This document shows positions 16,066 through 47,335 of a stretch of 64,000 bases of DNA, piece after piece. Below the pieces are notes generated by a model. That model was not told where the DNA came from and ran no database searches. It worked only from the letters and a program-made list of their open reading frames with translations. The first letter of the stretch is position 1; every line of letters starts with the position of its first letter. Origin of the DNA: Argopecten irradians (Eukaryota; Mollusca; Bivalvia; Pectinida; Pectinidae); the NCBI RefSeq assembly GCF_041381155.1, contig NC_091144.1, forward strand, positions 29,940,980 to 30,004,979, written 5' to 3'. The position numbers and the translations under genes were made by a program.

Positions 16066-16564
16066 TACGGAAGCCGTCTGGTGCCACACCAAAAATATAT
16101 TTATTGTGTTCCCTCACAATAATATTGTAAGGCCACACAATACTATTGTGAGGTGACACAATCTTATTGTGAGGCCACACAATACTTATTGTGAGGGAAC
16201 ACAATCTTATTGTGAGGCCACACAATATTATTGTGAGGGAACACAATCTTATTGTGAGGCCACACAATATTATTGTGAGGGAACACAATCTTATTGTGAG
16301 GGAACACAATCTTATTGTGAGGCCACACAATAATTATTGTGAGGGAACACAATGATTACTGTGAGGGAACACAATATTATTGTGAGGGAACCTCACAGTT
16401 ATAATGTGTTCCATCACAATAATTATTGTGTGGCCTCACAATAATATTGTGTTCCCTCACAATAAGATTGTGTGGCCTCACAATGGCATTGTGTGGCCTC
16501 ACAATAGTATTGTGAGGGAACACAATAAATACATTTTTCGGTGTGGCGCCAGACGGCTTCCGTA
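16066..16564. mobile_element. Palindrome-filled TIR element with 6 bp target duplication
   Basis: The ends are inverted repeats of about 55 bp (tacggaagccgtctgg inward). They are flanked by a matching cgagaa at 16060-16065 and 16565-16570, taken as a 6 bp target duplication. The whole interior consists of about 20 short units, each itself palindromic (cacaataNNattgtg joined by aggcca or agggaa). Unit orientation flips near 16390-16420, so the element is a palindrome at both scales. ORFs across it encode PHNKIVFPHN-type repeats that merely translate the units. The superfamily is unknown. Confidence 0.85.
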
Positions 16565-18478: not shown

Positions 18479-20032
18479 TCAATAATATTTGTAGTATCGA
18501 ATTGTTTTGATGTTGGACACTGTAGTCGAAGTGATTTGTTTCTTCTGCTCTGTTAGTACAGATATCCACAGGACATTTCCGGCCTGAATCCCAAGTGCTG
18601 ATATTCTATCTTGCTCCACGCTCACACTCTTAATATATTGTCCACCTCTGTCGATCAACAGCAGTCTTCTTTGATTTGCAACAAATGTCAAAACGATTAG
18701 ATACCCTCTGCTGTCATATGCGGCTTCATCAGCAATGTGATGCTGTCTTAGGTTTGATTTGAATTTAAATTGTAGGAAGTTGTCATACGCCATTAGTTTT
18801 GCACAAAACATATCATCATCTTCTTCGTAGTTCACAAGTACAGCTAAGTTGGATGTGACTGGACACTGGCAGACTGTCGGTATTTCCACGTTAATTACGC
18901 CTCTTGGAAGTTCATTTAACACTGTTTTAGTATCCATCTTCCGACCTGCGGTTGCGTAGATTGATATGCTATCATTTGCTATAGCCACAATATTGTCTTC
19001 TTTTGAAATGCAAAAGCAGGACGGGCATGAACGAAATTTAAAATGCCTAATGGGGCTTTTTGATGTGAGAAGAAGTTCATAGATCCACAAGTCGTCTTCA
19101 CAGAAAAACCAAAGATTGTTTGTTCTGGGTGATAAAGCAGTAGAAGTCACATTGCATGTGTGCTTAATAGTCCGTTTTGTACGGCCTTGGAAGTCAACAA
19201 GCCGTAGCTCTGTCGAGTCATAGTCACTCATCCATACACCTGAGTGAAAGGGATGGATTGATGTACATTCAAATTTAACCTGAAACAGCATCTCTTCTGA
19301 TGGCTTTTTGAGAAAGTCATCGGTGTGTGCCACACTATTCATGGCAGGTGATTCGAAGTTGCCTTCAACTTCATGCTGTTTCTCAATGCAGTACGAACTA
19401 GTGGCTCATTCTCCATGTTCAGTAGAAGTTTGTCTACCCAATTTCTTTCTCAAGTAGTCAGATATTGACACACATGACTGAAAGTCGACTGTGTGCAGTA
19501 ATGGTTTGTGTGGGAGTTTCAAAACATCAGCAGAAAAGTCGGATGTAACATCATACACCAAGACAGGTGTAGCAACCTGTAACACGGTCTTATACTCTTT
19601 AACTTGTCCTAATATATAGCTGTGCCTTTGTTGAAGTGCATCAATGTATTCTAGCAGCAAATGTCTATTTTTCCCTGCCTGGCTTATGTTTTTGGAAACA
19701 AACAATGAAAGTGCTTCAAATTTTGTTTCATTTTCACCATTTTTATCTAGCATATTTCCAACCATCTAGATGTTGTGTTTGAGTTGATGCAGTGTTATAC
19801 GTTCCGTTTCGTTGATGACACTCTGAAGTTCAGCTCTCTTCTGAGGAATTATTTCACCCAGTTCTTTTTGGCTATGACCATTGTGAGTTGAAATACTGCA
19901 TGAAATACAAATGAGTTCATCACAGTCTAAACAGTATATTTGTACCTCTTTTGTTCTATGTTTAGCACATCTAGAATCCCCTTTCTGTTTCACACACACC
20001 TGTCCTAATGTTATTCGTCTTTGTAACGCCAT
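18479..20032 (-). pseudogene. B-box/coiled-coil/beta-propeller gene with two in-frame stops
   Basis: From ATG 20032 (MALQRRITLGQVCVKQKG) one frame runs 517 codons to the stop at 18479-18481, interrupted only by TAG at 19766-19768 and TGA at 19406-19408. There are no frameshifts. It is collinear and almost the same length as the divergent paralog at 20868-22424 (518 residues). Order: B-box (CAKHRTKEVQIYCLDCDELI continuing through CSISTHNGH), coiled coil, a linker in which the TGA lies, then a C-terminal domain with NHL-like strands (YDSRGYLIVLTFVANQRRLL). The TAG falls where the paralog has Ser in ISLVQSML. There is no RING finger. It is either a recently disabled gene or an allele carrying nonsense changes; readthrough is possible but unsupported. 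An acceptor, TTCTAG|GTACAG, precedes the ATG, so a non-coding first exon is likely. Confidence 0.75.
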
Positions 20033-20050
20033 TGTGTATATCACATACAA

Positions 20051-20867
20051 TTGCTGTACCTAGAAAACAACACCTATTTATGGTATAATCAGATGTACGA
20101 CTACGGTTAGCAGATATCTTGTGGGTCTGTTATCAACAAAGTGACATCATAATCATTAAAGGGATATTCGTTCATATTGTTATCAAGTAAAGGTTGATAA
20201 TGCTCATATTAGATAAAAACTAGAAAGTTGAATGCACATGATGTAATGTTTATCAAGTATAATGAAACCATTACCGAACCATGCTGCAAATGGAATAAGC
20301 AGAAACAGATAATATAGATTATTAGAGATAATGTTTATGAATTTTGACGACGTAATGATTTAAGAACTTCGATTGAATCAATCGAATGTATTGATATATG
20401 ATTTATCTAATTGTTTTATCTCAGAAACACAAGTGACGAAGGATGGTAATTCTATGACTCGTGCCCTATCCAAGCTTCGAACTTAATATCGATCTACAGC
20501 ACTCAGTAATCTAGCAATATATAGCTTATATATAGTTTGAATTTACAAACACGAAAAACTTGAAATGAAACTAGATTAATGAATTAATCCTACCCCTGGC
20601 TAAATAAGTTCGACATATTTTAACATCAATGCTTTACACATTGCATTGACGAATGTCTCTTTAATGTATATCAATGTCCAAATTTAATTGATATGTAACA
20701 AGTGATTAGACTCCCTCGGATTGTACTCCAACATTAATTATCAGTTATCAACTCGGTTATCATAGAAATCTAGTTCAAGTTTAAAGATATGCATTTAATA
20801 AAGTAATTTGCATATCACTAAATACATACGTATTCAGGTACAACCACCGCCATATAGGGCAAATACA
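20051..20867. promoter_or_regulatory. Shared intergenic region of a divergent gene pair
   Basis: About 830 bp separates the two head-to-head B-box coding regions. Both have a splice acceptor just before the coding start: TTCTAG|GTACAG on the minus strand (around 20060) and ATTCAG|GTACAA on the plus strand (20837). The similar acceptor context suggests the duplicated unit included a 5' UTR exon. No TATA or other core element can be assigned with confidence. A bidirectional promoter is an inference. Confidence 0.4.
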
Positions 20868-22424
20868 ATGGCATCCAACAAGCCACCGCTGACGCAAAAA
20901 GGAGGGGATGCTGTTAGACCAAAAAGGGAATCCAAATGTTCCATTCATGGAAATAGGGAAATAATGTTATGCTGCTTAGACTGTGATCAGCTTTTGTGTG
21001 TTACATGCAGTATTTCTACTCACCTCGGGCACAGGCAGGAGGAACTGATAAATATAATACCAGAGAAAAAGTCTTCACTTCAGCATTTCATCAACGATGC
21101 TGAAAGCATAAAACTGATTGAACTCGAAAGCGAAATCAGTTTAGTGCAAAGTATGCTGGTTGGTAATGAAGAACATTGTAAAAGATTTCGGGAATTTCAG
21201 GAACTTTTATCCTCAAGTGCAAGGCAAGTCATACTAAACAAAGATTTGTTGCAAAAGTACAAGAAAGAACTGGAGAATAGATTTGGAACTCTTCTCGAAC
21301 GAGCGGAAGAATGTAAAGTAATATTACGATCTGGTACTCCTGTACAGGTGTGCGATGCAGTGAATGATTTTGCTGTAGGAGATCCCAAATTTCCGGACGA
21401 AGTTATCTTATTTAAAATTGATATCGGTCCCATTACATCGATGCCCACCGAATCACAGGACGAAAATGGAAAGGCCACTGCTTACCCAGAGACAAGCAAC
21501 AATGGAGCGTGCTCTAAGGATACTGAAAACCAACAACAATCAGAAAACGTCATCTCCAATGTCATGAAAAAGCAGGACGACGACTTCCTCAAGAATCCCG
21601 AACTTCTATTGTTATTCAATAGTACTATAGAGTGTTATACAGTACACCCCATGGCCTTTGGTGTCTGGCTTAGGGCATATCGATCGAAGGAACTACTCCT
21701 GGTTGACATTCGAGGGCATGCCAAACGGAGGATTAAAACCGCTCGTGCCATTACATGTACTTCTACATCACCGACAACAAACAATATTTGGTTTGGTTGC
21801 GCAGGTGATTTATCGATATATGAAGTATCTCAAGATTCAAAATTGCCAGTCAAGCGTGTTACAGTGGATTCTGAAATTATCGGCCTTTGTATAACAGCGA
21901 AAGAACAGGTTGTAGTACTTTCTGATATAAACCTTGTGATCTTCACTCCAAACGGTGGCGTACTTGCCTCATTACTATTGGGAGTTGCGATGACAAGCAT
22001 TCATATTTCTTTGAAAGCAGGAACCATCTCTCAGTGTCCAATAACAAAGAACCTTGCCATTAATGTGAGGTATGAAGAAGAAGAAGATGATATTTGGTTG
22101 GGAAAGTTAATGGTGTATGACGAATCACTTCAACTCAAGTTTGACTACAGTGGCAGAGGAGATCACCTTCCGTGGAAATCTGTCTATGATAGCCGGGGGA
22201 ACATTGTTGTTTTATCCGCCGGCGCCGTTGAACGAAGGATCCAGCTGCTAAACAGCGCGGGAGAATATGTAAGGACTATATACGTGGACGGATCCATGGA
22301 TATGGTAGGGATCGGGTTCCGGTTAGATAGATTGTGGGTTTCGATACTTGAAGAGAACTCGAAGAGATTTGCACGTAACACAAAATCGAGCATTTACACC
22401 ATCGAGTACTTTAAATCTAAGTGA
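20868..22424 (+). CDS. TRIM-like protein: B-box, coiled coil, NHL-like propeller
   Basis: A 518-residue intronless coding exon. I chose the ATG at 20868 (MASNKPPLTQ) because it follows a likely acceptor (ATTCAG|GTACAA) and aligns with the start of the minus-strand paralog. Residues 24-55 form a B-box zinc finger (CSIHGNREIMLCCLDCDQLL, then CVTC...H..H). Residues 65-150 are a coiled coil, 185-245 a polar linker, and 255-518 a repeated-strand domain with NHL-like strands (YDSRGNIVVLSAGAVERRI, LLNSAGEYVRTIYV). It belongs to the large bivalve group of TRIM2/45/71-like proteins lacking RING. Such proteins usually act in oligomeric complexes in innate immunity or RNA control, but without RING it should not be a ubiquitin ligase by itself. 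Its function is inferred only at family level. Confidence 0.85.
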   Translation: MASNKPPLTQKGGDAVRPKRESKCSIHGNREIMLCCLDCDQLLCVTCSISTHLGHRQEELINIIPEKKSSLQHFINDAESIKLIELESEISLVQSMLVGNEEHCKRFREFQELLSSSARQVILNKDLLQKYKKELENRFGTLLERAEECKVILRSGTPVQVCDAVNDFAVGDPKFPDEVILFKIDIGPITSMPTESQDENGKATAYPETSNNGACSKDTENQQQSENVISNVMKKQDDDFLKNPELLLLFNSTIECYTVHPMAFGVWLRAYRSKELLLVDIRGHAKRRIKTARAITCTSTSPTTNNIWFGCAGDLSIYEVSQDSKLPVKRVTVDSEIIGLCITAKEQVVVLSDINLVIFTPNGGVLASLLLGVAMTSIHISLKAGTISQCPITKNLAINVRYEEEEDDIWLGKLMVYDESLQLKFDYSGRGDHLPWKSVYDSRGNIVVLSAGAVERRIQLLNSAGEYVRTIYVDGSMDMVGIGFRLDRLWVSILEENSKRFARNTKSSIYTIEYFKSK

Positions 22425-26380: not shown

Positions 26381-26677
26381 ATGCTTAAGCTATTGTTTCT
26401 ACTTGCTGGACAATTGATACAAATTGTCAATTGCTTTATCATTTCGGATTATCAATTCGGTTATAACTTAATTTCAAAATCTTACGATGGAATAGATAAT
26501 GTCGGATTACAAATGTGCGCGAGGCTTTGTGGTATGTCGACCGACTGCCATTCCTTCAACTACAGAATGGATTGTCTCAGATGCACGCTTAATTATGTTG
26601 ATGTGACTGAAGCCAGTAGTGCATTGTTTCTGCAGGACTCGAGAAATGTTTACGGTGATAGCTGGGCTATCGAAAGG
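26381..26677 (+). CDS. Exon 1: signal peptide and PAN/Apple-like domain
   Basis: It gives 99 residues from ATG 26381. Residues 1-18 (MLKLLFLLAGQLIQIVNC) are a clear signal peptide. Cysteines at 46, 50, 56, 65 and 68 (MCARLCGMSTDCHSFNY, then DCLRC) have the spacing of PAN/Apple domains. The donor AGG|GTAATT at 26678 leaves phase 0. Without splicing the frame would stop at 26713 after a few residues. Confidence 0.8.
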
Positions 26678-29600
26678 GTAATTCTTAAGAATATAGATGT
26701 GTTCATTCCGTAATATTGCATGATGGTGAATTTTGTTTTACATATAAAACACACAACGCCGATAATACTGATTTCGTTTTCCATACTTTTAAACAAATTT
26801 TGCAATCTTTATGTTGATTTAAGCATCATATGTATATGTTTTTTCTATTTAATATTATTGCCAATATAATAATGCAAAAACGTACCAAGGAACGGAATAT
26901 TTTAGGGTTTAAAAATAAAAATAAATAAATAGATTTTAATCATTAAACTACAATTCAGTATTTGTACTGTTAACTAACTAATGTTTGTTGCGACTTTTTT
27001 AGCGATATCTTATTTTTGTTTTCGCGGCAATTCAATTACGCGATTTAAGATTTTAAAAAGACCAGCCAGTTTTTGTTTTCCGATTCAGTTTTGCGAAAAA
27101 TATGTTTAATCCAATCGAAAATAGGTTTGTTTATATTTGTATGATAATTATATATCTCCATATTTGTTGATGGTTAACATCTTCCATTCACGTGATATGA
27201 ATATTTGATTTCAAAATAGAATTTTGCATTAAAAGTAAATAAGAGTTCAATTTTGACAAGGCAAATTATCAATGCTAAGATGTTAATACACTGAATATCA
27301 GGCAATTAAATTTGAACTTATGGAATTTTGGCGATGTGACAAATTAAACTATGTGACTAATCTATCACTGTTTTATTTTGCGCGTCAAAGTTTTACGACC
27401 CTACTGATGATAATTCATGTCCCGCTAAATCGAAAAGAAATGTCCCGAAAAGTTACCGTATATTTATTATGACACCACTTCATCATGGCAGGACGTAGAA
27501 CTTATGGGAGCATGCACAAACCATACCTGTCCGGAGCATACTTCCTGTGTAGTGACAACTTCCGGGGTCAAAGCGTGTATCATATCAGGTAAGGTTGTGA
27601 CAATTTCGGGATCATATCGTGTATCATATCTGGTAAGGTTGTGACAATTTTGTGATCAAATCGTGTATCATATCTGGTAAGTTTGTGACAATTTCGAGAT
27701 GAAAACGTCTAACCTATCAGGTAAGTTTGTGACAATTTTTGTGATCAAATCGTGCATCATATCAGCTAAGGTAGTGAAAATTTACGGGGTCAAAACGTGT
27801 ATCATATCAGGTAAGGTTGTGATAATTTTGTGATCAAATCGTGTATCATATCAGGTAAGGTTGTGATAATTTTGTGATCAAATCGTGTATCATATCAGGT
27901 AGAGTAGTGAAAATCTACGTGGTCAAAACGTGTATCATATCGGGTAAGGTTGTGGCAATTTGCAAATTCAAAACGTGTATCATATTAGCTAAGGTTGTGA
28001 CAATTTCCGGGGTCAAAACATACATTATATCAGGTATGGTTGTGACAATTTACGGGATCAAAACGTGTATTATATCATGTATGGTTGTGACAATTTACGG
28101 GATCAAAACGTGTATTATATCATGTAAGGTTGTGACAATTCACGGGATCCAAACGTGTATCATGTCAGGTAAGGATGTGACAATTTACGGGATCAAATCG
28201 TGTATCATGTCAGGTATGGTTGTGATAATTTACGGAATCAAATCGTGTATCATATTAGGTAAGGTTGTGAAAATTTCGGTATGAAAACATGTATCATATC
28301 AGGTAAGGTAGTCACAATTTCCGGAGTCAAAAGGTGTCTCATATCAGGTAATGTAGTGACAATTTCGGGATCAAAACATGTATCATATCAGGTAATGCGT
28401 TGTAATAATTGAGCTGACAATGTAACGATGAAGTATTATTTTGTATCCAACGTTATTTTAGTTAATAGCTGTTTTCTCCAAAGGCAAGAAAAACAATATA
28501 ATAATGCAGTTTGCCACAACCTCACAAAATGTGGATTCATTCACACACGAAACAAACTCAGAATAAGACGTTAACATTTCCAAACAAAACTGACTGTCAT
28601 TTCCTTTAATACGACAGATTAGATATAAAACCGTGACAAGGTTTTTACTTGTTTGAGTCCATTAATAATACTTTTTTTATGTACAGTATAGTTTATATAT
28701 TGTTATTATTATTTCCCTTGAATTTCATCAACGAACAAAATAATAACTTTGTTGGTCAAGGTTATCATAGTGAATATGATTGGCAAGCGAAGTTGCTCAA
28801 TCATTGTTCCTGTTGATAAAAAATTTTAAAATGGGGAAACATCTTCAACATCATCTTTGGTTATCCACGTAATCAGCCTACACTACGTTGCAGAGCACTG
28901 TGTTTTCCGTGGTTGGCAAACGTTGGGGACGGGATAAGTCAACAATTTGCTGTAAACAGGATAAATTCTCGAGTGTTCAATTTTGCAATTAACTTTTCAT
29001 GATGTTCTTATTTTCGCGCAAATCACACATATCAATTTTTTGAACATAGCCTTATATAGCAAATATTAAGCGCGGTAAAATTGTTTACAGTGAAAAGCCT
29101 TTTGCGTGACTAGCGTAAATTTTCCTCACGTAAATTTTCATGTTTACAGTTTGTCTCCCTTGTTTCATTACAGGAGAAATTAAACAATACATTCATTTCA
29201 GGATGTGGACCGCCACCCAATGTTACAGGAGCAGACGCTGATGTCGCCCCCTACCCTGTGGCATATATCTATACTTACACGTGCTTGCCGACCTTCCAAC
29301 TAGTCGGTGGGCCTATCACGTGTTTGACGAATGGTAACTGGACAGAACCAGGTGTTCAGTGTTCCGATACTCAAGGTTGGTACCTATATTTCTACCATTT
29401 TAATAACTTTTTACGTAATGATATTCACCGAAACTAACTGTATTATGTAATATATTTGAAATATTAAATTATATCACAGTATAGACACTATGAGCCTTAT
29501 ATCCGCCTTGAAACAACCCCCATTTTGCGTTATTGTTGGATAGTTCATAGCCCCTTTTGTGTTCATATTAGACAGGAACACTGTCCACGTATGTGCAATC

Positions 29601-32600
29601 GATTATGAAGTTTATTGATAATGCAGAGGAAGGTGTTGAATATAGCTCACCTTGTATGCTTATTTCATGTTTAATATACTAGAGGTGTGTGAAATCATGG
29701 GCGAGGTCATTTTTAGTTTTATTTACCAAAATATCACCTGTGTGTTACATGTAGGATGGGTGCCAGCACAGATAACAACAGTCTTGTGATTTTTCTGCGT
29801 CAAAATGGATTGAATGTGATTAATACATTAGAAATACGGACTTTATTTACTTATATAAGTAAATCATACAATCAAAAGTAGTGGAACGATTATAGTACTT
29901 AGTGTATATTATAAAATGATGTGCAATATGCGGAAAGGATTAATATCATCAATGTTTCTCGGAATCTCCTAAGGAATCATAAAGTTCTGCAAGTGCATAA
30001 ATAATGAAGAATTATTGTAGATAATATAGATCTGATGGATATTTCGCGCTGGAATGTGTATATTATAGTAAAGTACTTGGGTATATGTTTTGAATCTGTC
30101 ATCATTTTAGATTATTACCTGTATGCGGAGGATATGGTCGTTGGAATTTACTTGTTGATATTTGCAGTGATATATTTGAGAAAAACATGGATTTTGGTTT
30201 TTCTAATTTTCTGTTTTCATTATTAATTATGTATTAAAATCATTGCCTACTAAAGCCTTCCCCTGGTACTTCTTAATATATGTTACCCTTGACAGTCCAC
30301 TATTAACATACAGCTGTCCCATAAGTTATTTGACAGCTACAGGTAAATAATGGACTGCTAAAGGTAACATCATGGACAATGACAGGTGAGGTCTGTTGCT
30401 TCCGTTAGATATTGTACCAAAAAGACAATGGATGATATCACAGCTGTGTTTTATTTTTTAAGATATTAAAAGGAACAAATAATCCTTTATAACGCACTAC
30501 TGCCAAATATGTTATAGTTACATCCACAATGCAGAAAAATGAGTACGTACATGTATGACCATCAAGTCAAGTTGTGCTCAACTATTACTGTTCCTAAGTT
30601 CCTGTTAAGTGATTTATGCAAGTATATTTCCATATTAAAATACAAAAGGTATTGTACATCGCATACATTCTGTGTTTTGACTAATGTTTATAAGGCATTA
30701 GTCCATTTGAAAGTTTTTCACTGCTGAATTCATCAAACCTTGATTGTTTTCAAGATATTCATAACATGTCAAAGTCTGCGCAAAGTTATGGCACATATAA
30801 GTTTGAACAGATTAGCGTAAATTACATGATATTTTCGACTGCGACGTATATGAAACTTTGTTTCAAAACGATATTATTTAATAATTGTTCGCTTTCTTTA
30901 TTCCGTCTTTGAATATCACAAAATTAGCTCCCTTGCGGATAGATATCGATTGTTACGTCATTATTTAGTGAGTGCAATTTATATGCTTTCTCTGAAAACA
31001 ATGACGTTACGCTCGCAAATACATGCCGTCACAATCCAAATGGAACCGCTATTGCAGATTACTTTATCATATGCAAATATGGAATTGAAGGAACTATGAA
31101 AGCATACAATACCAAAATTTATGTAACGTAAGTGTAATGATATTAATTTGTTAATATGGATTTTGTTTTCGTTTTGTGGGATACGCTGCATGTAAAGAAA
31201 CTATAAGGAATATACAATACAGATATGTATGTATCGTAAATTTCATTAAAATATTTGTTAATGTGTATATTTTTATTCTTGATTTTTTGGATTCCGCTTC
31301 AGTGGTTATGTGTCCAATGGCTCCAGTGCTGTCTAACGCCACAGCTGTAGGGGTAGGGAGGAACGTTGGAGACAATAAAACATATGTGTGTGCGTCGGGA
31401 ACCACTGCCAACGGCTCAGGGGACATCACATGTCTGGCGGGAGGGTCATGGTCACCGACTTCTCTGGTGTGTGAGCCGGGTAAGAAAAAAGTTTTCAGTT
31501 TTGTTTTTTATTACTTTAACGTCTTATATATTAACTGCCAGGGTCATTTAAGGACGTTTTAGGTCTGTTGATGAAGGAAAGGAGCTGGAGTACCAAGAGA
31601 AAAAACCAGCGGTCAGTATCCGGCAACAGCCCCATATGGGATTCGAACTAGCAACCTAAGGGTGAAAGATATGTCGGGACATCTTAACCAGTTTTCCACT
31701 GTGGCCCCGGCACACTAACGGCAGCTTTGTATAGTATTATGTAATATATAAGATTTTCATTGTATTCAATGGTCCAACGAAGAAACACCCTTTACCCAAT
31801 TATATTCCATCTAGTACTGTCTCCGTAATTCTGATGGATCAAGTCTTTTTGTCTCTATTGATAGAGACGTTGATTGTAACGTTGGATGCTTGGTTTCGAT
31901 CCCTTGTTAGGATATTCGAGAGGCATTGGATGTTCCTCTACATTAGCGCGCAACTCACTGTCGGTGGTTTGATAATTGTATCTTCTCCTCGCCTCTTTTC
32001 CCCCACGTGCCTTTGTAAACCCCCTTTGTTCTATCCCTTGACAATGCCATTCTAAATTGATAAAAAATGTCAATATATAGGGATCAACCAACTAAATAAA
32101 AAAAGAACTTCGAAATGGCCCCTGTGTATACAAGATTGAGCCCAGGATAGAATTTTAACCCGGCCGCTGATTGGCTGGCTAATTATGAATTTCGAAAGTA
32201 AAAATGTTTTCTGACAGGTAATTATTCCTAGATAACCATGATATGAATTTGGAAATTCATATTGCGATTTAGGTTCAAAATATCAACTTTGATAATGAAT
32301 AGGTAAAAGCATTAGAATTTCAGGATTTTTTAGTGCAAAATAAAGCTACCCTGGTTGAAGTTTGAGCAGAAGGACCCAATTTTTTTTTCTATTTAGTGTT
32401 ATATGAGAACCTAGACTTTAATTATAGAACACAATAGCTAACTAATATTCATTTGTTTTAATAATACAGTACAAAACTTTAATAAAGTTTAACACTGTTA
32501 GGCCATGGGCTAGGAGGGTCCCACATGCACCCCCCCCCCCCCAAATCTCCGAACCAATATTTTTCTGAACCCTTATGACCCACTGATCACAAATCCAAAT

Positions 32601-35600
32601 GTTAACATTGCATAAGTTGGGATGAACTTCCGGTTATGACGTCATCAAGATGGCCGCCATCTCGAATTTCACTAAAAATTGAAAAATAGTCATAACATTA
32701 ACATTTTTCAACCGAAGTAGACAAATGAGGTATCAAAATGACCACAATAGAACAACAAATACATATCAGGACCAAAAAATCCAATATATGTAGTGATTTC
32801 TACGCAGGAAATGAAAACATCGGATTTAAAGCTCAAAAATGGTGATTTTTCAGCAAATTTTTCATATTTTGTTTGACGCAGCAAAAATGTTTCCCAACAA
32901 CAATCTATTATTTCTAATAAGTTTTTTGACCTTTTATCAATCAGTTTAAACAACAACAACAACAAAAACCAATGTTAACATGGTATAGGTTCCGGTTATG
33001 ACGTCATCAAGATGGCCACCATCTCGAATTTCACTAAAAAATGAAGAATAGTCATAACACTAATATTTTTCAACTAAAGTAGACAAATGTGGTATCAAAA
33101 TGACCACAATAGAACGACAAATACATATCAGGACCAAATAATCCAATATGTGTAGTGATTTGTACGGAAGAAATAAAAAAATAAGCTTTTAAGCTCAAAA
33201 ATGATGATTTTTCAGCAAATTTTTCATACTTCGCTTGACGCAGCAGAAATGTTTCCCAACAACAAATTATTACTCGTAATCAGTTATTTAAACTCCTATC
33301 AATCAGTAAAAACAAAAACAACAACAAAAATATATAGAAATGCAAAAAAAGAATTATTGTTATACCCTCAATTTTGTAGATTAGCAGCGTCTCAAAAATA
33401 ACACAACACCTACTGATAGCGTAACAAATGTAACCTAAGCTAAGCCTGTGTTTCCGTTAATATCATTAACAGTTCCCAAAGCGTTTGTGTCTTTGAAAAT
33501 GAGCACATTCATTGTTTATTTCCTATGCATAGCATAAGCAAAATGTCATATGGTTACTACAATGTCACTAATATGTCTTTCACTGGTTCTCAATGATAAC
33601 CATTATCATTGTGCGTGCTTTCTCGCCTCACTGACCTATCCACTGTAGAGACTCGGCATATCTGGTAGCTGGTACATGCAGTCCGAATCAGAGTACTCGA
33701 GATATCGGTATTCAATTCGTCGAAAGCCAGATCGACGTCTTCGATGTCGATGAGCTCATGTGACACTGCATTACCAGTGTTGTTCTAGCCTTTTATGACC
33801 CATCCATGACCAGAGTTCATATCAGGAACAACAGGTTCAGGGATATGGGATCTCTTTCAGATTCTAACATATCGTACGTATATGCTGTTTCAGACTTCTC
33901 CGGCATAATGGAAATTACACCAGATGCACATTCTTCTAATGGTGGAATTGGTTCACTTTAGCACATAACTCCATAATTCGTATGAAGTACTATTCATCAA
34001 TCTTGTGGACCCTCGTGCAACCATAAATGGCATCGAGGTCATTAATGAGGGCATAAATGTTAAATGTTTTTCATTGGTCTGACTTTTCCCACTCCCTTGA
34101 AGGTGCTGGTTGTGTCACATCTGGTGTATGCGCAAAGAGACCATTGAAGACTCTCCAGTAAAAAGTTCTCTAAAGTGCTTTCCAGACTTGGCAAAGAGTG
34201 AAACTTCACTGCAGACCTCATTTATGACCTCAAAGAATCCACCTGTGCCACCTATGGTCACTGAGGTTCACAAGAATGAGGAATTGTGCTTCATACGAAT
34301 TAAGGAGAACCAACTCAACCCTCCGCAGAATGTTGATCTGGTGTCTTTTCCATCATGCCGGGGAAGTCTGGAACCTCATATACCATATGTGAATCTAGGT
34401 GAAACTAGGTTGGAAACAGGAAGAGCTCCCACATCCCTGAAGCCGATGTTTCTGATCTTAACTCTGACCATGGACAGTTGACAAGTTAGAACCACGATGG
34501 TAACCCGGTAATGTAATGTCACATCAGGTCACCGAGGTCGAAGACGACACTCTGGCGAGAAAGCACGCACAACGAAAATGATTAGCATTAAGAACTAGTG
34601 AAAGAAATATGTGACACTGTAGTAACCATCTTATATTTCCTTGCGTTATACACAGGAAATAAACAATGGATGTGCTCATTCTAAAAGACACAATATGTTT
34701 CGAAAAGTGTCATGGTATTTACGGAACTTTAATTTGATACCTTATAGCTATTAGTTAGCGTTTTGCTGTAATAATTCAGGTTGAGAGGCTACTAGTCTAC
34801 AAAATTTCGAACATGAAAATGGATTATTTTGAAGTCCCACTTAGATATTCAGCCAACTTTAAATTCAAATTTGTTAAGATATAAATCGTCAATAGCCAAT
34901 GTTATATTCAGGAAATTCCAAGACACCAGGAAACTGTAGTGTTAGCGGTTTGGAAAAAATAACAATCATATGCCGCATCCGGTGATGTTTTGTAAACCAA
35001 ATGATGGTATAACAATTCTCTTTTGCATTTCTATATATTTTTGTTGTTGTTGTTTTAACAGATTGATAAGAGGTCAAATAACTGATTGTGAATAATAATT
35101 TGTTGTTGGGAAACAATTTTGCTGCGTCAAGCCAAATATGAAAAAATGCTGAAAAATTACCATTTTTGAGCTTAAAATATTATTTTTTTTCATTTCCTGC
35201 GTTCAAATCACTACATATATTGGCTTATTTGGTCCTGACATGTATTTGTTGTTCTATTGTGGTCATTTTGATACCTCATTTGCCTACTTCAGTTGAAAAA
35301 TGTCAATGTTATGACTATTTTTCATTTTTCGAGATGGTGGCCATCTTGATGACGTCATAACCGGAACTTATACGATGTTAACATTGGTTTTGGTTGTTTT
35401 TGTTGCTTAAACTGATTGACAAGTGGTCAAAAAACTTATTAGAAATAATAGATTGCTGTTGGGAAACATTTTTGCTGAGTCAAACAAAATATGAAAAATT
35501 TGCTGAAAAATCACCATTTTTGAGCTTTAAATCCGATGTTTTCATTTCCTGCGTAGAAATCACTACACATATTGGACTTTTTTGGTCCTGTTATGTGTTT

Positions 35601-37240
35601 GTTATTCTATTGTGGTCATTTTGATACCTCATTTGTCTACTTCGGTTAGAAAATGTTAATGTCATGACTATTTTTCAATTTTTAGTGAAATTCGAGATGG
35701 CGGCCATCTTGATGACGTCATAACCGGAAGTTCATCCCAACTTATGCAATGTTAACATTTGGATTTGTGATCAGTGGGTCATAAGGGTTCAGAAAAATAT
35801 TGGTTCGGAGCTTTGGGGGGTGGGGTGCATGTGGGACCCTCCTAGCCCATGGCCTATGTGGTCTATGTAAAATTATTTAGTTGGTTGCTCTCTATAAGGG
35901 TCAATAAACCTTCGGTGGTCACTAAGACGTGATTGCATGGCGTGTGCTGTTCGATGTCATATTTGCAGTGTGTTTTGTTAGATAATAGCACTTAAAATGG
36001 GCAAGAGACCTATTATTACACGCAGAAAAATCACCAAAAAAACACCCATTCATCAACAACAACATATCACACGCAATGGGGCGTCTTTCCTCGATCATGG
36101 CCATTTAAAGGTCGTTTTCATTCGACTGTTTGTAATATTCATAGATTTAAATATTTTGACGTAACATTGGCTTTTTAAAAAACCAGTTTGATATGACAGT
36201 ATTCGCCAAATTCAATACCCATTCTTTGCTATATTTTGGAATATATTATAAACGAACTTATCTGCTCTCCTTTAATTCCTCACAATGACTTCCCGTAGTC
36301 ATGTTTCTCTTTGTTAAAATCATTCAAGCATCGTCACCGAAACATACATTCCATATACATCGAACACATGTTTATTAAGCACAGCTATGATATCTCCACA
36401 CAATTCACTGGAAATTTTATGAGTCAAAGGCGTTATGTTGATGTTATACAAGATACAACTAGTCTAGGAATCAATTTTGGAAGAGTTACCTTTCTTGGAA
36501 CATATTTTCGAAAAATGATATTGTAATAAAGCATCCTTTGTTAATGATTAACGTACGTTTCATAGTCCTGTGATCTTAGCATTGGAGTGTTTTTCTAAGT
36601 CCCTCATACAATCGATTAAAACTGTCATTGAAATCAGTCAAGGAAATATTACGATTCAAATAAATTCAATACGCGACATAATTGTTTTATAGATTAAATT
36701 TATCAGATAATCGCTGCAATATTTTTGAAAACACATTCATTAATCAAGCTGGTCGTTTGTATGTATACAGGGTGCAGATTTGATAGGGTATTTCATCATA
36801 CTGATGGGATTCACGTTTTGACCTCTGTAATGTTATTCTTTACGTTTGGCTACGAATTTGACAAAAAACAAGAAGACACCAGAAAAAATACTGTAATCCT
36901 TCGAAATACTTATACCGCTTACACAGGAATTCGCCCTTGAACTTCAACAACAACTGTTAAGCGGACATGAAGCATAATAATCAACCAATCCCCTTAATGT
37001 ATAATATATATATATATTTTCTCAAACATTTGAATGGTGTATGTTGTAGATTGTACAGGCGCCTCATCACAACCTGCTACTTACAGTCTCCCTTTACATG
37101 AAACATCAGCAGCATTTGGGGACTTCATCTGGTATACATGTCAGACCGGCTTAACTCGAGCAAGCGGCGACGGCAAGAGAACATGTGGGCCAGGCGGAGA
37201 ATGGCTTCCGGAGAATATCATGTGTGGCAAATCAGAGTGA
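26381..37240 (+). CDS. Secreted PAN/Apple plus sushi (CCP) domain protein, five exons
   Basis: I assembled five exons from splice signals and matching phases: 26381-26677, 27492-27588, 29202-29375, 31303-31479 and 37050-37240. Together they give 936 nt, 311 residues. Exon 1 ends in phase 0; every later junction is phase 1, typical of shuffled extracellular modules. Order: signal peptide (1-18), PAN/Apple-like domain, a short EGF-like cysteine module, and three CCP domains, each one exon. Such proteins are secreted, and PAN and CCP modules bind proteins or glycans; roles in pathogen recognition or extracellular matrix are known for relatives in molluscs but are not shown here. Extra exons may have been missed in the large introns. 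Intron 2 begins with a donor-bearing minisatellite, and intron 4 holds a SINE and an inverted-dimer element. Confidence 0.75.
27492..27588 (+). CDS. Exon 2: EGF-like cysteine module
   Basis: Acceptor CATGGCAG|GAC and donor ATATCAG|GTAAGG frame 97 nt that encode DVELMGACTNHTCPEHTSC and then VVTTSGVKACIIS. The four cysteines (C-x4-C-x5-C-x9-C) look like part of an EGF fold; the next cysteine comes at the start of exon 3. It enters in phase 0 and leaves in phase 1, matching both neighbours. The last ~38 nt and the donor are the first unit of the minisatellite that follows. Confidence 0.7.
27551..28398 (+). repeat. About 45 bp minisatellite repeating the exon 2 end and its splice donor
   Basis: About 19 units of 42-48 bp with the theme gacaatttccggggtcaaa, then cgtgtatcatatcaggtaag. 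Unit 1 is the true 3' end of exon 2 with its donor, so the array grew across the exon-intron border. About ten units keep GGTAAG. Positions 27874-28284 carry units of exactly 45 bp, which gives an open frame of 15-residue repeats (KTCIISGKVVTIYG-like). That ORF is a product of the periodicity and not a separate gene. Confidence 0.9.
28399..29201. other. Rest of intron 2
   Basis: AT-rich sequence after the minisatellite, ending at the acceptor CATTTCAG before exon 3. No further exon was recognised. Confidence 0.45.
29202..29375 (+). CDS. Exon 3: sushi/CCP domain 1
   Basis: 174 nt, phase 1 to phase 1, with acceptor CATTTCAG and donor CAAG|GTTGG. It encodes one CCP module with four cysteines in CGPPPNVTG, YTYTCLP, GPITCLT and GVQCSD; the conserved Trp is present in GNWTEPG. 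The Asn-Val-Thr and Asn-Trp-Thr sequons could carry N-glycans. Confidence 0.85.
29376..31302. other. Intron 3
   Basis: About 1.9 kb of AT-rich sequence with no recognisable exon. It ends at the acceptor GCTTCAG before 31303. Confidence 0.45.
31303..31479 (+). CDS. Exon 4: sushi/CCP domain 2
   Basis: 177 nt, phase 1 to phase 1, with acceptor GCTTCAG and donor CCGG|GTAAG. Cysteines lie in VVMCPMAP, KTYVCAS, GDITCLA and SLVCEP, and Trp in GGSWSPT. It resembles exon 3, as expected from module duplication. Confidence 0.85.
31540..31712 (-). repeat. tRNA-derived SINE (copy 2) in intron 4
   Basis: On the minus strand there is an A-box-like TGGTTAAGATGTC (31690-31678) and a B box AGTTCGAATCCC (31649-31638). 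They are followed by the body shared with 15100-15325 (tactccagctcctttcc, then aaatgaccctggc). Both pol III boxes are present, in the order and spacing of a tRNA-derived SINE head. Confidence 0.75.
32610..33340. repeat. Two ~365 bp direct sub-repeats in the left arm
   Basis: Each unit (near 32610-32965 and 32970-33340) begins with ttccggttatgacgtcatca followed by agatggccgcc or agatggccacc, and ends with caacaacaacaaaaa. The same two units recur inverted at about 35045-35395 and 35395-35760. Each holds a CRE-like TGACGTCA next to a YY1-like AAGATGGC site. Confidence 0.8.
33400..34556. other. Centre of the inverted dimer
   Basis: Contains the point of symmetry near 34.1 kb. The open frame at 34110-34481 (plus) and the decayed frames on the minus strand at 33640-34150 descend from the same ancestral protein, one from each inverted copy. 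Neither is a usable gene. Shared phrases include cttcatacgaatta and the atgccgg-gaagtctg motif in opposite orientations. Confidence 0.5.
35907..37049. other. End of intron 4
   Basis: No exon was recognised. A (TA)n run lies near 37005-37016, followed by the acceptor ATGTTGTAG at 37049. Confidence 0.45.
37050..37240 (+). CDS. Exon 5: sushi/CCP domain 3 and stop
   Basis: 191 nt from acceptor GTTGTAG|AT to TGA at 37238-37240. The CCP module has cysteines in DCTGASS, IWYTCQTG, KRTCGPG and NIMCGK, and Trp in GGEWLPE. The protein ends four residues after the last cysteine (GKSE), so there is no membrane anchor; the product should be secreted. Confidence 0.8.
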
Positions 37241-44569: not shown

Positions 44570-47335
44570 TTATGCGTGTGATCTTTACACAGAGGTGGTC
44601 GCTAAGGTAACTTTGACTGGTCTCACTAAGCAGGTGATCTTTATACAGAGGTGGTCGCTAAGGTAACTTTGACTGGTCTCACTAAGCAGATGATCTTTAT
44701 ACAGAGGTGGTCGCTAAGGTAACTTTGACTGGTCTCACTAAGTAGGTGATCTTTATACAGAGGTGGTCGCTAAGGTAACTTTGACTGGTCTCACTAAGCA
44801 GGTGATCTTTATACAGAGGTGGTCGCTAAGGTAACTTTGACTGGTCTCACTAAGTAGGTGATCTTTATACAGAGGTGGTCGCTAAGGTAACTTTGACTGG
44901 TCTCACTAAGCAGGTGATCTTTATACAGAGGTGGTCGCTAAGGTAACTTTGACTGGTCTCACTAAGCAGGTGATCTTTATACAGAGGTGGTCGCTAAGGT
45001 AACTTTGACTGGTCTCACTAAGTAGGTGATCTTTATACAGAGGTGGTCGCTAAGGTAACTTTGACTGGTCTCACTAAGCAGGTGATCTTTATACAGAGGT
45101 GGTCGCTAAGGTAACTTTGACTGGTCTCACTAAGCAGGTGATCTGTATACAGAGGTGGTCGCTAAGGTAACTTTGACTGGTCTCACTAAGTATGTGATCT
45201 TTATACAGAGGTGATCGCTAAGGTAACTTTGACTGGTCTCACTAAGCAGGTGATCTTTATACAGAGGTGGTCGCTAAGGTAACTTTGACTGGTCTCACTA
45301 AGTAGGTGATCTTTATACAGAGGTGGTCGCTAAGGTAACTTTGACTGGTCTCACTAAGCAAGTGATCTGTATACAGAGGTGGTCGCTAAGGTAACTTTGA
45401 CTGGTCTCACTAAGCAGGTGATCTTTATACAGAGGTGGTCGCTAAGGTAACTTTGACTGGTCTCACTAAGCAGATGATCTTTATACAGAGGTAGTCGCTA
45501 AGGTAACTTTGACTGGTCTCACTAAGTATGTGATCTTTATACAGAGGTGATCGCTAAGGTAACTTTGACTGGTCTCACTAAGCAGATGATCTTTATACAG
45601 AGGTGGTCGCTAAGGTAACTTTGACTGGTCTCACTAAGTATGTGATCTTTATACAGAGGTGATCGCTAAGGTAACTTTGACTGGTCTCACTAAGCAGGTG
45701 ATCTTTATACAGAGGTGGTCGCTAAGGTAACTTTGACTGGTCTCACTAAGCAGGTGATCTTTATACAGAGGTGGTCGCTAAGGTAACTTTGACTGGTCTC
45801 ACTAAGCAGATGATCTTTATACAGAGGTGGTCGCTAAGGTAACTTTGACTGGTCTCACTAAGTAGGTGATCTTTATTCAGAGGTGGTCGCTAAGGTAACT
45901 TTGACTGGTCTCACTAAGCAGGTGATCTTTATACAGAGGTGGTCGCTAAGGTAACTTTGACTGGTCTCACTAAGTATGTGATCTTTATACAGAGGTGATC
46001 GCTAAGGTAACTTTGACTGGTCTCACTAAGCAGGTGATCTTTATACAGAGGTGTGTCGCTAAGGTAACTTTGACTGGTCTCACTAAGTATGTGATCTTTA
46101 TACAGAGGTGGTCGCTAAGGTAACTTTGACTGGTCTCACTAAGCAGGTGATCTTTATACAGAGGTGGTCGCTAAGGTAACTTTTGACTGTGTCTCAGGCT
46201 AAGGTATTGTGGTCTTTAAACTTTATACAGAGGTGTCGCTAAGGTAACTTTTGACTGGGTCTCACTAAGCAGATGATCTTTATACAGAGGTGGTCGCTAA
46301 GGTAACTTTGACTGTCTCACTGTGTCTACAGAGGTGGTCGCTAAGGTAAGCAGATGATCTTTATACAGAGGTAGTCGCTAAGGTAACTTTGACTGGTCTC
46401 ACTAAGTATGTGATCTTTATACAGAGGTGATCGCTAAGGTAACTTTGACTGGTCTCACTAAGCAGATGATCTTTATACAGAGGTGGTCGCTAAGGTAACT
46501 TTGACTGGTCTCACTAAGTATGTGATCTTTATACAGAGGTGATCGCTAAGGTAACTTTGACTGGTCTCACTAAGCAGGTGATCTTTATACAGAGGTGGTC
46601 GCTAAGGTAACTTTGACTGGTCTCACTAAGCAGATGATCTTTATACAGAGGTGGTCGCTAAGGTAACTTTGACTGGTCTCACTAAGCAGATGATCTTTAT
46701 ACAGAGGTGGTCGCTAAGGTAACTTTGACTGGTCTCACTAAGTATGTGATCTTTATACAGAGGTGATCGCTAAGGTAACTTTGACTGGTCTCACTAAGCA
46801 GGTGATCTGTATACAGAGGTGGTCGCTAAGGTAACTTTGACTGGTCTCACTAAGCAGATGATCTTTATACAGAGGTGGTCGCTAAGGTAACTTTGACTGG
46901 TCTCACTAAGTAGGTGATCTTTATACAGAGGTGGTCGCTAAGGTAACTTTGACTGGTCTCACTAAGCAGGTGATCTTTATACAGAGGTGGTCGCTAAGGT
47001 AACTTTGACTGGTCTCACTAAGTAGGTGATCTTTATACAGAGGTGGTCGCTAAGGTAACTTTGACTGGTCTCACTAAGCAGGTGATCTGTATACAGAGGT
47101 GGTCGCTAAGGTAACTTTGACTGGTCTAACTAAGTAGGTGATCTTTATACAGAGGTGGTCGCTAAGGTAACTTTGACTGGTCTCACTAAGCAGGTGATCT
47201 TTATACAGAGGTGGTAGCTAAGGTAACTTGGACTGGTCTCACTAAGCAGGTGATCTGTATACAGAGGTGGTCCCTAAGGTAACTTTGACTGGTCCAACTA
47301 TGTAGGTGATCTTTATACAGAGGTGGTCATTAAGG
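44570..47335. repeat. 56 bp satellite, about 49 units
   Basis: The unit is ggtgatctttatacagaggt, ggtcgctaaggtaactttga, ctggtctcactaagca. Copies are very similar. Variant forms at the junction (caggt, cagat, taggt, tatgt) occur in ordered blocks; tatgt units nearly always carry gtgatcgct in place of gtggtcgct. A scrambled patch lies at about 46180-46345. The left flank (44450-44570, tcaaacctgtgtataaacac and ggtctttatcgccaggtggt) looks like a diverged ancestral unit. No coding potential. Confidence 0.95.

Follow-up and report, generated by a model that had tools for sequence, protein, structure and literature searches.

The IFI6/G1P3 gene contains a minisatellite with a short, 12-bp unit at an exon/intron border. 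Its repeats, which supply splice donors, were reportedly described by Turri, Cuin and Porter in 1995. A citing paper (PMC4526556) attributes three mRNA species and different IFI6 isoforms to the use of donors in two downstream repeat units. For UBC, and in a similar case for VCX3A, Duan et al. 2024 (PMC10809524) describe the use of tandem AG/GT sites and an 8.4-fold excess of human introns whose length is a multiple of the surrounding repeat. Ma et al. 2016 (PMC4974935) describe a tandem duplication across an intron/exon border in the potato RdRp gene, associated with a new intron. Here we analyzed a stretch of 64,000 nucleotides from Argopecten irradians (contig NC_091144.1, positions 29,940,980 to 30,004,979 of the forward strand; hereafter the window, with coordinates counted from its first base). 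A five-exon gene in this window, encoding PAN and CCP (Sushi) domains, carries a tandem array that repeats the end of exon 2 together with its 5' splice site. Our data suggest, with a probability of about 0.72, that the downstream copies form a neutrally decaying ladder of donors behind a dominant true donor at 27589, and that leakage into this ladder would yield unproductive mRNA.

Tandem Repeats Finder detected an array with a period of 45 at 27552-28395 (18.9 copies, 83% matches), and anchoring on the donor motif placed 19 donor positions in it, from 27589 to 28392. These values agree with the first-pass annotation, made from the DNA letters alone, which had described about 19 units beginning inside exon 2. 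The array and the reading frames within it comprise the following features:

27552..27596, plus strand: exonic unit 1, with the true donor CAG/GTAAGG at 27589 (repeat finder, donor anchoring, unit alignment).
27597..28399, plus strand: 18 intronic copies of the exon end and donor, with a mean pairwise identity of 81% (repeat finder, donor anchoring, unit alignment).
27642..27644, plus strand: TGA in the frame of exon 2, reached by all transcripts extended to at least position 3 (conceptual translation).
27859..28281, plus strand: open frame that runs on from one 45-bp unit to the next, read in each as in the exon but not joined in frame to exon 2 itself (open reading frame list, conceptual splicing).

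When units are cut 8 bases past the exon 2 end, the exonic unit consists of 37 bp of exon 2 and 8 bp of intron; its alignment to the intronic consensus shows three substitutions and one gap column. Its mean identity to the intronic units is 83%, compared with the 81% found among the intronic units themselves. The proposal that the repeat unit is an exon end plus a 5' splice site, with unit 1 being the real exon end, was thus confirmed at the sequence level. Conceptual splicing likewise upheld the proposed limits of exon 2, its donor at 27589, and the exon 3 acceptor, whose last base is 29201. Spacings of 44 bp occur seven times and spacings of 45 bp 11 times, with no other lengths, so that the 42-48 bp spread given previously was wrong. 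GT is retained at 17 of the 19 positions, being lost at positions 5 and 10, whereas AG is retained at 14/19 and both dinucleotides at 12/19. The GGTAAG motif, estimated earlier at about ten occurrences, is present at exactly 10 of the 19 positions, including exon 2's own donor (9/18 intronic copies).

We translated exon 1, the extended exon 2, and exon 3 for each of the 18 downstream positions, and none gave an intact product. Position 2 (+44) led to a frameshift and a stop after 179 residues, and positions 3-19 all stopped at the TGA at 27642-27644, after 149 residues. The failure of all 18 positions in this haplotype follows from the 44-bp length of the first three spacings. Judging from the unit lengths, an allele without the first three 44-bp units would place donor 6 in frame, position 5 having lost its GT, and in-frame cassettes could arise there. 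In the present haplotype, each downstream position either shifts the frame or runs into an early stop. Switching donors therefore inserts no cassette in frame by itself, and we rejected for this haplotype the previous suggestion that later donors could add short cassettes. The open 45-bp stretch on which that suggestion drew does exist, as the long open reading frame at 27859-28281, because the 45-bp units copy a coding exon end; however, reading exon 2 on into the array does not reach it in frame. By conceptual splicing, it is correctly framed only if an AG inside the array also acts as an acceptor.

The nearest precedents are the IFI6/G1P3 minisatellite and the tandem AG/GT sites of UBC. As in the IFI6 type, the tandem array sits at an exon end with the donor site inside the unit, and several copies carry a strong donor consensus, as judged from GT, GGTAAG, and U1 pairing energies. 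The same DNA architecture is thus found in another animal gene. In contrast, several IFI6 donors are reportedly used and encode isoforms, whereas the present downstream positions lead to a frameshift or follow a stop; the unit of 44 or 45 bp is a further difference. We regard the array as a variant with IFI6-type DNA architecture and do not assign it as a member, since its downstream positions encode no isoforms in this haplotype. The likeness to UBC and VCX3A lies in the AG/GT contained in the tandem unit, a potential donor and acceptor that keeps both dinucleotides at the 12 positions mentioned above. The UBC repeats are coding, 228 nt long, in frame, and either spliced out or kept, whereas the present repeats are intronic, 44 or 45 bp long, and carry only putative splice sites. 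In the potato RdRp gene, the duplicated DNA also spans an intron/exon border and brings splice signals along, but a new intron was detected there, whereas the present copies sit within an existing intron.

The donor bases show no sign of preservation beyond that of the rest of the unit. Because the array units share descent, the following selection tests are approximate. Substitutions from the intronic consensus affected 18/162 bases of the donor 9-mer and 65/630 bases elsewhere (Fisher p = 0.77), and 11/108 of the six core donor bases compared with 72/684 elsewhere (p = 1.0). The substitution rate of the donor block ranks 31st lowest among 44 circular placements, and an intact GGTAAG core is found in nine of the 18 intronic copies, close to the 9.2 that the rate of change outside the core predicts. 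Hence, selection on the donors was found neither by 9-mer rate, core rate, and block placement nor by the intact-core count. Among the eleven 45-bp units, 17 of 56 substitutions are synonymous (15.8 expected), and codon constraint on these units gave no significant signal with either all changes or distinct changes counted.

To trace the exon end, we used a protein search of the same genome, which returned 60 matches; 30 are listed as loci, including three exons of the gene itself, and seven further regions were examined around the listed matches, three of which overlap loci L005, L026, and L029. Four intron-bearing paralogs (L034-L037) share the corresponding exon 2 end with CAG/GT, representing at most three independent lines, as L034 and L035 are near-identical neighbors. 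Repeat scans of these four loci revealed no tandem array at the exon 2 donor: L034 and L035 gave nothing, L036 a 40-bp AT run, and L037 T-rich and 30-bp repeats, the repeats of the latter two lying away from the exon 2 donor and being unlike the unit of the array. The exon end is common to paralogs without an array; therefore, exon end and donor are ancestral and served as the template of the array. The opposite view, in which the exon end is an invading repeat rather than the source, was rejected on the same observation.

Across the exon 2/exon 3 join, exactly C-x4-C is found in 24 of the 25 distinct paralog loci that align there without interruption, as in splicing from donor 1; the 25 loci are the 29 alignment rows spanning the join minus L034, L035, and L037, which run into the intron, and L040, which repeats locus L005. 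The exception, L014, has ten more residues between the flanking cysteines, and L039, which aligned in two pieces with a longer linker, falls outside the count. Three of the 24 loci (L020, L024, and L028) have stops in the matched stretch, so not all of these genes are intact. As a separate observation, many PAN/EGF-like/CCP paralogs have no intron at this join (L005-L013, L015-L025, L027, L028, L030, and L031). They lie on C13, C543, C164, C937, and other contigs, several of them in clusters on C13 (near 23.0 and 24.4 Mb), C543, and C164. Retroposition and subsequent local expansion could have produced them.

A DNA search of the 846-Mb assembly with the intronic array, in a mode that skips simple repeats and very common words, returned only the array itself and the exonic unit. 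A 25-base motif, allowing at most three mismatches, had 18 matches in the assembly, 16 in the array and two on contig C15 at three mismatches; its backwards control had one match. A dispersed repeat family is thus unsupported, the DNA and motif searches pointing to a single locus apart from the two C15 motif matches. As far as these searches reach, the array appears confined to one locus, although rarity is not proven with simple repeats skipped.

Donor strength was expressed as U1 duplex energy and acceptor strength as pyrimidine content, in place of a species-specific donor or acceptor matrix. Donor 1 has an energy of -11.5, equaled by donors 6, 7, 14, and 17, and donor 4 reaches -12.1. In about 20-60 kb of the window, seven of 2387 plus-strand GT sites pair with U1 at least as strongly as donor 1, and six of the seven are in the array, although these six are copies of one another and so not independent. 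Six further donors were scored, those of exons 1 and 3 of the gene and of exon 2 in each of the four paralogs; their energies lie between -6.0 and -12.9, and all but one are weaker than donor 1. On paper, several intronic copies thus equal the real donor, in line with the ladder of competing donors proposed in the first-pass annotation. As one copy is stronger and four are equal, site strength does not dictate the use of donor 1. That donor 1 dominates is inferred from three points: it defines a 97-nt exon, it is conserved among paralogs, and no other choice is productive.

In the history that we favor, roughly the final 37 bp of exon 2 and the first bases of intron 2 would have been duplicated in tandem, and the duplication would have expanded to 18 intronic copies in this one gene and then drifted as neutral intron sequence. 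The spliceosome most likely keeps the donor at 27589, which defines the exon and is the only choice giving an intact protein. Leaky use of a copy would produce a frameshifted or early-stop mRNA. Such RNA would be expected to undergo nonsense-mediated decay; the most it could yield is a truncated protein with the PAN domain alone. Several points weigh against this account. One intronic donor exceeds donor 1 in U1 pairing energy and four match it; the analysis covers one haplotype only; and stops make up none of the 56 substitutions in the 45-bp units, compared with 2.4 expected (p = 0.067). The stop deficit, which becomes 0 versus 1.3 expected (p = 0.22) when shared changes are counted once, is a weak hint of coding constraint.

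Other explanations assign the ladder a function. A regulated or allele-dependent share of transcripts might use later donors, gain the TGA at 27642, and be destroyed, with array length tuning output. Donors as strong as donor 1 or stronger at 27721, 27811, 27855, 28169, and 28303 are consistent with such a role, as is the unproductive outcome at every downstream position, and decay would be expected from the exon 4 and exon 5 joins downstream of the stop. We nevertheless consider this unlikely, as the donor bases are no more conserved than the rest of the unit. Coding diversity is the least probable of all the readings: alternative donors or micro-exons would lengthen the linker that joins the EGF-like stub to CCP 1 by 15-residue blocks. 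None of the eleven 45-bp units contains a stop in the exon-like frame, and combining an internal AG acceptor with a later donor gives open in-frame insertions for 24 of 91 pairs. Against these stand the absence of any intact in-frame product from donor choice alone, the single cysteine that most blocks would bring in, the lack of a synonymous excess, and the short pyrimidine runs of the candidate array acceptors, which make them weak.

The same acceptors are central to two further readings. Each AG/GT could act as both acceptor and donor. The correct mRNA would then be restored either when donor 1 is joined to an AG within the array or when a product of donor k is spliced again, so that the array would be removed stepwise or mask its own errors. 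The retention of AG and GT together in 12 of 19 copies argues for this, as do the UBC array, described as in use, and the excess of repeat-multiple human introns (8.4-fold; PMC10809524). However, the longest pyrimidine run upstream is 2-4 bases at all 19 array positions, compared with 5-8 bases ahead of exon 2 in the four paralogs, and we judge the idea doubtful, less likely than regulated decay. In the gene itself, the acceptors of exons 2-5 show runs of 4, 3, 6, and 3 bases, three of the four being also weak, so short runs in the array do not exclude acceptor use. In a still more improbable version, a wrong donor would leave an AG at the new junction (in copies keeping AG), and donor 1 would then splice there, again restoring the correct mRNA. 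If so, the repeat would tolerate, and perhaps buffer, its own splice errors, and copy number would set the frequency of mRNA loss.

The gene that carries the array is intact as a model: its five exons together form an open reading frame of 936 nt, stop codon included, that encodes 311 amino acids, as follows:

26381..26677, plus strand: exon 1, signal-peptide-like start and PAN domain, donor AGG/GTAATT (conceptual splicing; PF00024, E 1.3e-5).
27492..27588, plus strand: exon 2, four-cysteine EGF-like stub, phase 0 in and phase 1 out (conceptual splicing; corresponding exon in paralogs L034-L037).
29202..29375, plus strand: exon 3, CCP (Sushi) 1 (conceptual splicing, Pfam).
31303..31479, plus strand: exon 4, CCP 2 (Pfam, conceptual splicing).
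37050..37240, plus strand: exon 5, CCP 3 and stop codon (Pfam, conceptual splicing).

Pfam identified three PF00084 Sushi/CCP domains (E 2.9e-6, 1.7e-6, and 5.3e-4), CCP 3 being marginal at 20.8 bits with a cut-off of 20.7. The EGF-like label of exon 2 reflects its four cysteines and a weak, sub-threshold Pfam match (E 0.21). The encoded protein is probably secreted, the signal-peptide-like call being a hydrophobic start judged by eye. Intron 4 holds a large fold-back structure at 32499-35856, with inverted arms such as 32532-32779 and 35578-35825 that are 97% complementary and about 2.8 kb apart, and with a 362-bp tandem duplication between the arms; it is possibly a mobile element.

Elsewhere in the window, a 56-bp minisatellite at 44578-47335 forms two adjoining blocks of about 31 and 18 copies (94% matches). 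An array with a unit of about 21 bp occupies 16101-16528, and its consensus contains the complementary TATTGTG and CACAATA, which could fold back. Two adjoining, opposed groups of open reading frames at 18482-20059 (minus strand) and 20802-22421 (plus strand) have a B-box/TRIM-type look by eye.

Together, these data describe a natural competition experiment, in which one exon is followed by a row of 17 near-copies of a single donor that carry GT, several of them sharing the same 9-mer. Donor usage in the array would test the relative weight of position, exon length, and U1 pairing in donor choice. It would also bear on why tandem repeats at exon ends are tolerated, which may be because wrong choices are unproductive or because AG/GT copies are spliced away.
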